DNA of 41,130 bases from Deltaproteobacteria bacterium (GTDB taxonomy: Bacteria > Desulfobacterota > Desulfuromonadia > Desulfuromonadales > BM103): assembly GCA_019313185.1 (NCBI GenBank), contig JAFDBS010000226.1, positions 1 through 41,130 on the forward strand, given 5' to 3'. Of this stretch, positions 16,526-27,060 are shown piece after piece. The notes under the pieces were generated by a model, which saw only the letters and a list, made by a program, of their open reading frames with translations, searched no databases and had not been told where the DNA came from. Position 1 is the stretch's first letter, and each line of letters begins with the position of its first letter. A program made the position numbers and the translations under genes.

Positions 16526-16550
16526 GGCGCCCGAGGGCGCCAATTTTTTT
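16526..16550 (+). terminator. Terminator downstream of frr
   Basis: GGCGCC-CGAG-GGCGCC followed by AATTTTTTT. Confidence 0.7.
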
Positions 16551-16556
16551 GCCTTA

Positions 16557-16584
16557 TTGCCCAAATCGATTATCCTGTGATAAT
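16557..16584 (+). promoter_or_regulatory. Predicted promoter of the uppS operon
   Basis: TTGCCC (16557-16562), 16-bp spacer, extended -10 TGTGATAAT (GATAAT 16579-16584). Confidence 0.4.
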
Positions 16585-16591
16585 TATCACA
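16576..16591. promoter_or_regulatory. 16-bp perfect palindrome matching the CRP/FNR-superfamily core TGTGA-N6-TCACA
   Basis: TGTGATAATTATCACA, 23 bp upstream of the uppS ATG; overlaps a second palindrome, CACAAT-T-ATTGTG (16588-16600). Confidence 0.6.
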
Positions 16592-16613
16592 ATTATTGTG
16601 CAGAGAGTTTCAC

Positions 16614-17360
16614 ATGCGTATTCCTCATCACCTTGCTATTATTATGGACGGTAACGGACGCTGGGCCGAAAAGCGTCATTTGCCGCGAATAATAGGACAT
16701 CGGAAGGGCGTTGAAACGGTTCAACAGATTGTTGCGACATGTCGCAAGCAGGGGGTCAAGTTCTTAACGCTGTTCGCGTTCAGTTCTGAAAACTGGGGTC
16801 GTCCACATGATGAGGTTGATGCGCTCATGCGCTTACTGGGAACCTTTCTCGAAAAAGAACTGAGTCGACTTCTCGAACAAGGCATCCGGTTGAGGGTTAT
16901 TGGGGAAACCGGACGCTTGCCAGGGCAGGTCTTGCGGATACTTCAAGAGGTTATGTCGCAGACAGAAGCCAATGACAAAATGACGCTCTGTTTAGCCTTG
17001 TCTTACGGATCTCGCAATGAAATGGTGCGCGCTTTTCGCAAAATTGGTGATCAAATCGCCTGTGGCAAGGTCTTGCCAGAGCAGATCAGTGAAAAGATGA
17101 TCAGTGAAACTCTTGACACAAACGGTATCCCTGACCCCGACCTGCTTATCAGAACCAGCGGTGAAACGCGAATCAGCAACTTTCTTCTCTGGCAACTGGC
17201 TTATACCGAACTGTATTTTTCAGAAAAGCTCTGGCCGGAATTCACGTCGTCCGAACTTTTGGAAGCCTTTGCTGACTTTAGCCAGCGCCAGCGCCGCTTC
17301 GGCCTGACCGGCGCTCAGATGGAAGGCGAAGAGATCACCCACCAGGAGGGTCGTCATTAA
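16614..17360 (+). CDS. uppS: Isoprenyl transferase / undecaprenyl diphosphate synthase
   Basis: HHLAIIMDGNGRWAEKRHLPRIIGHRKGVET; FAFSSENWGRP; DLLIRTSGETRISNFLLWQLAYTELYF. Confidence 0.96.
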   Translation: MRIPHHLAIIMDGNGRWAEKRHLPRIIGHRKGVETVQQIVATCRKQGVKFLTLFAFSSENWGRPHDEVDALMRLLGTFLEKELSRLLEQGIRLRVIGETGRLPGQVLRILQEVMSQTEANDKMTLCLALSYGSRNEMVRAFRKIGDQIACGKVLPEQISEKMISETLDTNGIPDPDLLIRTSGETRISNFLLWQLAYTELYFSEKLWPEFTSSELLEAFADFSQRQRRFGLTGAQMEGEEITHQEGRH

Positions 17361-18153
17361 ACAGCGTATCCTCACGGCGCTCATCGCCCTGCCGCTACTC
17401 ATCCTGTTTGTGTATTTCGCCAGCCCGGCTCTGTTCAAAGGATTGATTTGTTTGATCAGCGCGCTGGCTCTTCATGAATTTTATGCGATGGCATTGCCCA
17501 AACGGCGTCGCCCGGAAGCATCCATTGCTACAGCTCTTGGCGTCGTCATGGTGGTTGGCCTGGTTTTTTCAGAATCGCCAACCGTCAAGCTGGCCGCGCT
17601 CAGCGGCACGATAATCATCCTTTTGCTGTTGTTTTTGGCCCGCGTGCAAGAGATGTCCGAAGTTGCCAGGGACCTGTCGGTTGCCATTTTAGGTATTGTC
17701 TATATTCCGCTTCTCTTGTCTTACGCCGGCATACTTAGAGATGCACCACATGGTCGAGAATGGATATTCCTCGTGCTTTTAATCGTCATGAGCAGCGACA
17801 CCCTTGCCTATTTCGTGGGTCTGAACTGGGGTCGCCATCGCCTGTATTATGTCGTCAGCCCAAACAAAAGTATCGAAGGCGCATTGGGGGGCTTGCTCGG
17901 CGCCTGTCTCGGAGCTTTGATCGCCCGGCTAAGCTTTTTTCCGGAACTTGACGGATATGATGTGCTCTTCTTAGGTCTTGTCATGGGGGGGGTCAGTCAG
18001 CTTGGCGATTTGGTCGAGTCTCTTTTCAAGCGCAGTTTCGGCGTTAAAGACTCAGGGTCAATAATCCCTGGCCATGGCGGTTTGCTGGATCGACTTGACA
18101 GCCTGATTTTGATATTGCCCCTGGCATTTTATTATGCCGTTTGGATTTTCTGA
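17356..18153 (+). CDS. cdsA: Phosphatidate cytidylyltransferase
   Basis: Multi-TM protein with [16 protein letters not shown] and [24 protein letters not shown]. Start placed at ATT 17356 ([15 protein letters not shown]) with AGGAGG 6 nt upstream; the track start at GTG 17410 would truncate the N-terminus. Confidence 0.85.
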
Positions 18154-27037: not shown

Positions 27038-27060
27038 TGGGCGGGACATTGTCCCGCCCA
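27038..27060 (+). terminator. Hairpin after ilvC, candidate terminator
   Basis: TGGGCGGGAC-ATT-GTCCCGCCCA, perfect 10-bp stem; weak T tract. Confidence 0.55.

Follow-up and report, generated by a model that had tools for sequence, protein, structure and literature searches.

A non-conserved palindrome of CRP type over a conserved, probably ordinary uppS promoter in a member of the Desulfuromonadales

Extended -10 promoters of the sigma-70 type are characterized by -35 and -10 elements spaced by 16-18 bp and by a TG motif, and operators of the CRP type by the consensus TGTGA-N6-TCACA. Among the HcpR regulators of the CRP/FNR superfamily, those of Desulfuromonas and D. psychrophila have Ser or Pro in place of Arg180 along with a different site, ATTTGACCNNGGTCAAAT, and the change at this position has been linked to sites of the TTTGACC rather than the TGTGA type (Rodionov et al., 2004; PMC545781). 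In the literature searched, uppS was not reported to be under CRP control. The locus described here, in which a site with an exact CRP consensus coincides with a predicted uppS promoter, is located in a 41,130-nucleotide stretch of DNA (hereinafter, the window) from a 2.47 Mb assembly that is 86.4% complete.

The uppS promoter and the palindromes over it

The genes upstream of the promoter are those for EF-Ts, an amino-acid-kinase-family protein (pyrH by position) and frr; downstream are uppS, cdsA, dxr, rseP and a TsaD-family (tsaB-like) gene. The features of the region are as follows.

16526..16541, + strand: intrinsic terminator of the frr transcript, a stem-loop with a run of T after it (terminator scan)
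16557..16562, + strand: -35 element TTGCCC of the uppS promoter (promoter scan; TTG kept in relatives)
16576..16584, + strand: extended -10 TGTGATAAT, the left part of the palindrome (promoter scan; TGnTA kept in relatives)
16576..16591, no strand: perfect 16-bp palindrome TGTGATAATTATCACA, equal to its own reverse complement, absent from 29 relatives
16588..16600, no strand: overlapping inverted repeat CACAATTATTGTG (CACAAT-T-ATTGTG), not conserved
16614..17360, + strand: uppS, the first gene of the operon (PF01255)
17356..18153, + strand: cdsA, with an apparent ATT start at 17356 (PF01148; start codon comparison)

The promoter predicted by the scanner consists of TTGCCC (16557), a 16-bp spacer and GATAAT (16579-16584), with a TG upstream of this hexamer, and so has the elements, spacing and TG motif of an extended -10 promoter; the chance expectation in the scan was 0.6 for a promoter and 0.4 for a terminator. 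Most of what the sequence-only reading had described at this locus is borne out by these results, namely, the uppS-cdsA-dxr-rseP-tsaB operon, the frr terminator ahead of the site (16526-16541), the predicted -10 under the palindrome, the 16-bp perfect palindrome with its TGTGA-N6-TCACA core (16576-16591) and the interleaved second palindrome (16588-16600). The ATG of uppS, at 16614, lies 22 bp past the end of the 16-bp palindrome.

The palindrome is locally unusual and, on the scale of the genome, unremarkable. Under first-order Markov resampling, a perfect palindrome of at least 16 bp has P ~0.006 in the 218-bp spacer, and an exact TGTGA-N6-TCACA has P ~1e-4. If the left half is granted, TCACA would follow exactly and at the proper distance with a chance of ~1e-3, and TTATCACA with one of ~2e-5, which speaks against an incidental right half; the left half of the site is already supplied by the promoter. 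The exact motif is found only once in the window, as TGTGATAATTATCACA, and with up to two mismatches there are 19 occurrences versus 20 expected, which is the chance level. Genome-wide, ~38 perfect 16-bp palindromes are expected, and the window contains three of these, the other two being located at 205-220 and, within uppS, at 16732-16747. A perfect 23-nt inverted repeat, TGGGCGGGACATTGTCCCGCCCA, is also present at 27038-27060 of the window, between two open reading frames.

Homologs of uppS were found in all 39 relatives searched, and the upstream regions of 29 of these, including all 21 other family members covered, were compared, with the promoter counted over 30 genomes of the order. A genome-contig scan for uppS yielded distant relatives only (at most 56% identical). 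In 19 of the 30 genomes, the pattern TTGNNN-N15-TGNTA (TTGccc-N15-TGnTA) occurs no more than 130 bp from uppS; the average over 1000 resampled sets was 0.32 such genomes, and no set had more than 3. The fair statistic is 19 versus 0.32 because the sequences in the promoter alignment were selected and aligned on this pattern, which makes TTG and TGnTA invariant there by construction. The window carries this shared, order-level promoter, and its TGATA aligns exactly on the TGnTA of the relatives. The uppS promoter appears to be an ordinary one, and the comparison defines a housekeeping promoter that is conserved in this order ahead of the uppS-cdsA-dxr-rseP operon.

The -10 region of the relatives reads TG-n-TAnnTT, and the last T is present in 22 of 22 sequences where the window has A. 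Because this invariant T is replaced here and TGT-GATAAT is nearer to the consensus, the -10 has probably moved 2 bp upstream in this lineage, so that the best hexamer is now GATAAT.

Neither the palindrome nor any TGTGA-N6-TCACA is found upstream of uppS in the 29 relatives, including all 21 family members, and the conservation expected of a control site is therefore seen for the underlying promoter only; absence from relatives is an outcome that the sequence-only reading had itself named as refuting. The columns that correspond to TCACA of the window are matched by 3, 5, 2, 4 and 11 of the 22 aligned relatives, none of which has TCACA at the aligned position. In three relatives (L097, L107 and L112), the -10 is TGTGATA or TGTGGTA, without a TCACA partner. 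The second palindrome shows no conservation in the promoter alignment either. The genomes compared are all from outside the genus, the nearest having UppS identities of only 59-67%, and a uppS site specific to the genus is possible.

CRP/FNR-type regulators and alternative readings of the palindrome

Three matches to the HTH_Crp_2 model were detected in the genome. The only intact CRP/FNR protein found is a 225-aa protein encoded on contig C207. The second match is a remnant of another regulator of this family (L088:1495-1741; G000:C83), in which the HTH and the preceding helix are in different frames and the cNMP domain is undetected. The third, below the cut-off, resembles a MarR-type protein, and the remaining cNMP-binding proteins of the genome are unmatched by the HTH model. 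In an alignment with E. coli CRP and FNR, the recognition helix of the C207 protein is S-E-T-L-S-R versus R180-E-T-V-G-R185 of CRP, with Ser for Arg180 and Ser for Gly184, as in the FNR-like group. This protein is conserved in the order, and all orthologues with an extractable helix contain [SG]-E-T-[LF]-S-R. The relatives G004, G007, G018 and G020 additionally encode a paralogue whose helix, RETVTR, resembles that of CRP. No regulator with Arg180, Glu181 and Arg185 was detected in the assembly analyzed here; because the latter is 86% complete, the RETVTR paralogue could be missing from the bin. Two specific binders were considered and rejected: Rex, for which no gene was found (no PF06971 match in the 86%-complete genome), and a TGTGA-type HcpR, given Ser at position 180 and no match to Prismane (PF03063), the family of hcp, in the same 86%-complete genome.

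Pattern searches across the genome identified six TGTGA-N6-TCACA sites versus ~2.4 expected; 14 other spacings together account for 21 sites, a mean of 1.5 per spacing (Poisson P ~0.0045 for six at N6). In the other 21 family genomes, there are 44 such motifs, compared with 54 for the reversed control and 18 for the N7 spacing. The N6 enrichment in this genome is mild and suggestive, and something may select for the motif; the family shows none. It was rejected as proof of an operator, two of the six sites being inside genes and the family count falling below the reversed control. Certain sites, such as TGTGACAGGAATCACA and TGTGAGATTCATCACA, recur in the family genomes G004, G012, G019, G020 and others, and these may be genuine operators, conceivably bound by the RETVTR-type paralogue.

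The sequence-only reading had further proposed that a regulator of the CRP/FNR/HcpR type represses the operon. This proposal found no support, given that the site is conserved in 0 of 29 relatives and that the sole intact regulator has the SETLSR helix without Arg180. A narrower version is conceivable although rather unlikely: TGTGATAATTATCACA would be a lineage-specific operator at which a dimeric CRP/FNR-type repressor, for example a RETVTR-type paralogue that the draft assembly lacks, keeps RNA polymerase from the -10. The exact consensus and spacing, the placement over the -10 and the mild N6 enrichment are consistent with such an operator, as is the presence of RETVTR-type paralogues in the family at 86% completeness of the assembly, but even the RETVTR carriers G004, G007, G018 and G020 lack the site, the corresponding regulator was undetected in this genome, and the motif is not above the reversed control in the family. 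Were a genus-specific operator formed from the ancestral extended -10 and a mirror-image right half, with a CRP-like repressor acting on this isoprenoid/phospholipid/envelope-protease operon, which is doubtful, a promoter element would have been recruited as half of an operator, and a CRP/FNR signal would govern the synthesis of envelope and isoprenoids, an unexpected input for such genes.

Binding of a regulator from another family (e.g., Rex-like or TetR/GntR-like) to one or both of the overlapping palindromes seems highly improbable. Two interleaved AT-rich palindromes between the -10 and the start codon would fit such a regulator, and Rex sites, too, have TGTGA/TCACA half-sites, but Rex was not found and neither palindrome is conserved. 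Hardly more credible is repression by the resident C207 protein, which would have to bind despite its FNR-like helix. No other intact CRP/FNR regulator was found, the protein is conserved in the order, and the half-sites have the common GA...TC core; nevertheless, Ser replaces both Arg180 and Gly184, the matching group uses TTTGACC-type sites (Rodionov et al., 2004; PMC545781), and the uppS site is not retained in genomes whose orthologue has this helix.

Altogether, the palindrome is most likely incidental or private to the lineage rather than an established CRP/FNR control site because its left half is the conserved -10, its right half is unshared and a suitable regulator was not found. The reading that we consider probable is that of an ordinary sigma-70 promoter with an incidental, non-conserved palindrome over the -10. 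Just past the frr terminator, this promoter, with its extended -10, would start the uppS operon; within the palindrome, TGTGATAAT would be the ancestral extended -10 itself; and the mirror-image right half would be a lineage-private and most likely incidental addition, probably devoid of a regulatory function. An extended -10 such as TGTGATAAT can supply half of a CRP consensus, and for this reason, palindromes over the -10 in a single genome are easily over-read.

The start of cdsA

The conserved N-terminus of CdsA in the window is without a usual start codon. The frame opens with ATT AAA CAG CGT at 17356, so that the uppS stop TAA begins with the last T of ATT, and a strong Shine-Dalgarno sequence, AGGAGG, is located at 17344-17349. 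Thus, cdsA apparently starts at a near-cognate ATT that overlaps the uppS stop as ATTAA (17344-17360 with the Shine-Dalgarno sequence). Across 42 genomes of the order, the loci compared alongside the window being L090-L119, L197-L206, L008 and L009, 36 have ATT as the aligned codon and four have ATC; L008 has ATC at the next codon, which brings ATT/ATC to 41 of the 42. The sole genome with a usual start is L206, with GTG one codon upstream. In nearly all 42 genomes, GGAG or GAGG is present a few bases upstream of this start; in-frame ATG, GTG or TTG codons occur up- or downstream in some genomes, at no common position. In the deltaproteobacterial outgroups L014, L020 and L022, ATG is present at this position or close by.

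The ATTAA overlap requires the third base of the start to be the T that begins the stop, and hence would force ATT. The overlap alone does not explain ATT/ATC because in L094 the uppS stop lies 26 nt ahead of a retained ATC, and L008 and L009 have ATC without an overlap. In E. coli, infC and pcnB have AUU starts, and IF3 discriminates against the AUU of its own gene, infC (PMC9410913). By analogy with these two genes, the cdsA start is possibly IF3-sensitive. No report of a near-cognate cdsA start was found in the literature searched.

Relation to known systems

Each of the described systems shares some features with the uppS site. The Desulfovibrio HcpR regulon includes TTGTGA...TCACAA-like sites, some of which overlap the -10 (sat, apsAB; PMC545781), but it has other targets, the regulator resident here lacks Arg180, hcp was not found, and the uppS site is not conserved. 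Operators of the Rex type have TGTGA/TCACA half-sites, whereas a rex gene was undetected here. With CRP-type operators, the uppS site has in common the exact consensus and spacing; it differs in that a cognate Arg180-type regulator was undetected in the 86%-complete assembly and the site is not conserved. The likeness to extended -10 sigma-70 promoters comprises TTGCCC, the 16-bp spacer and TG-n-GATAAT, an arrangement conserved in the order, from which the uppS promoter departs in a -10 register that is apparently 2 bp off that of the relatives and in the palindromic extension downstream.
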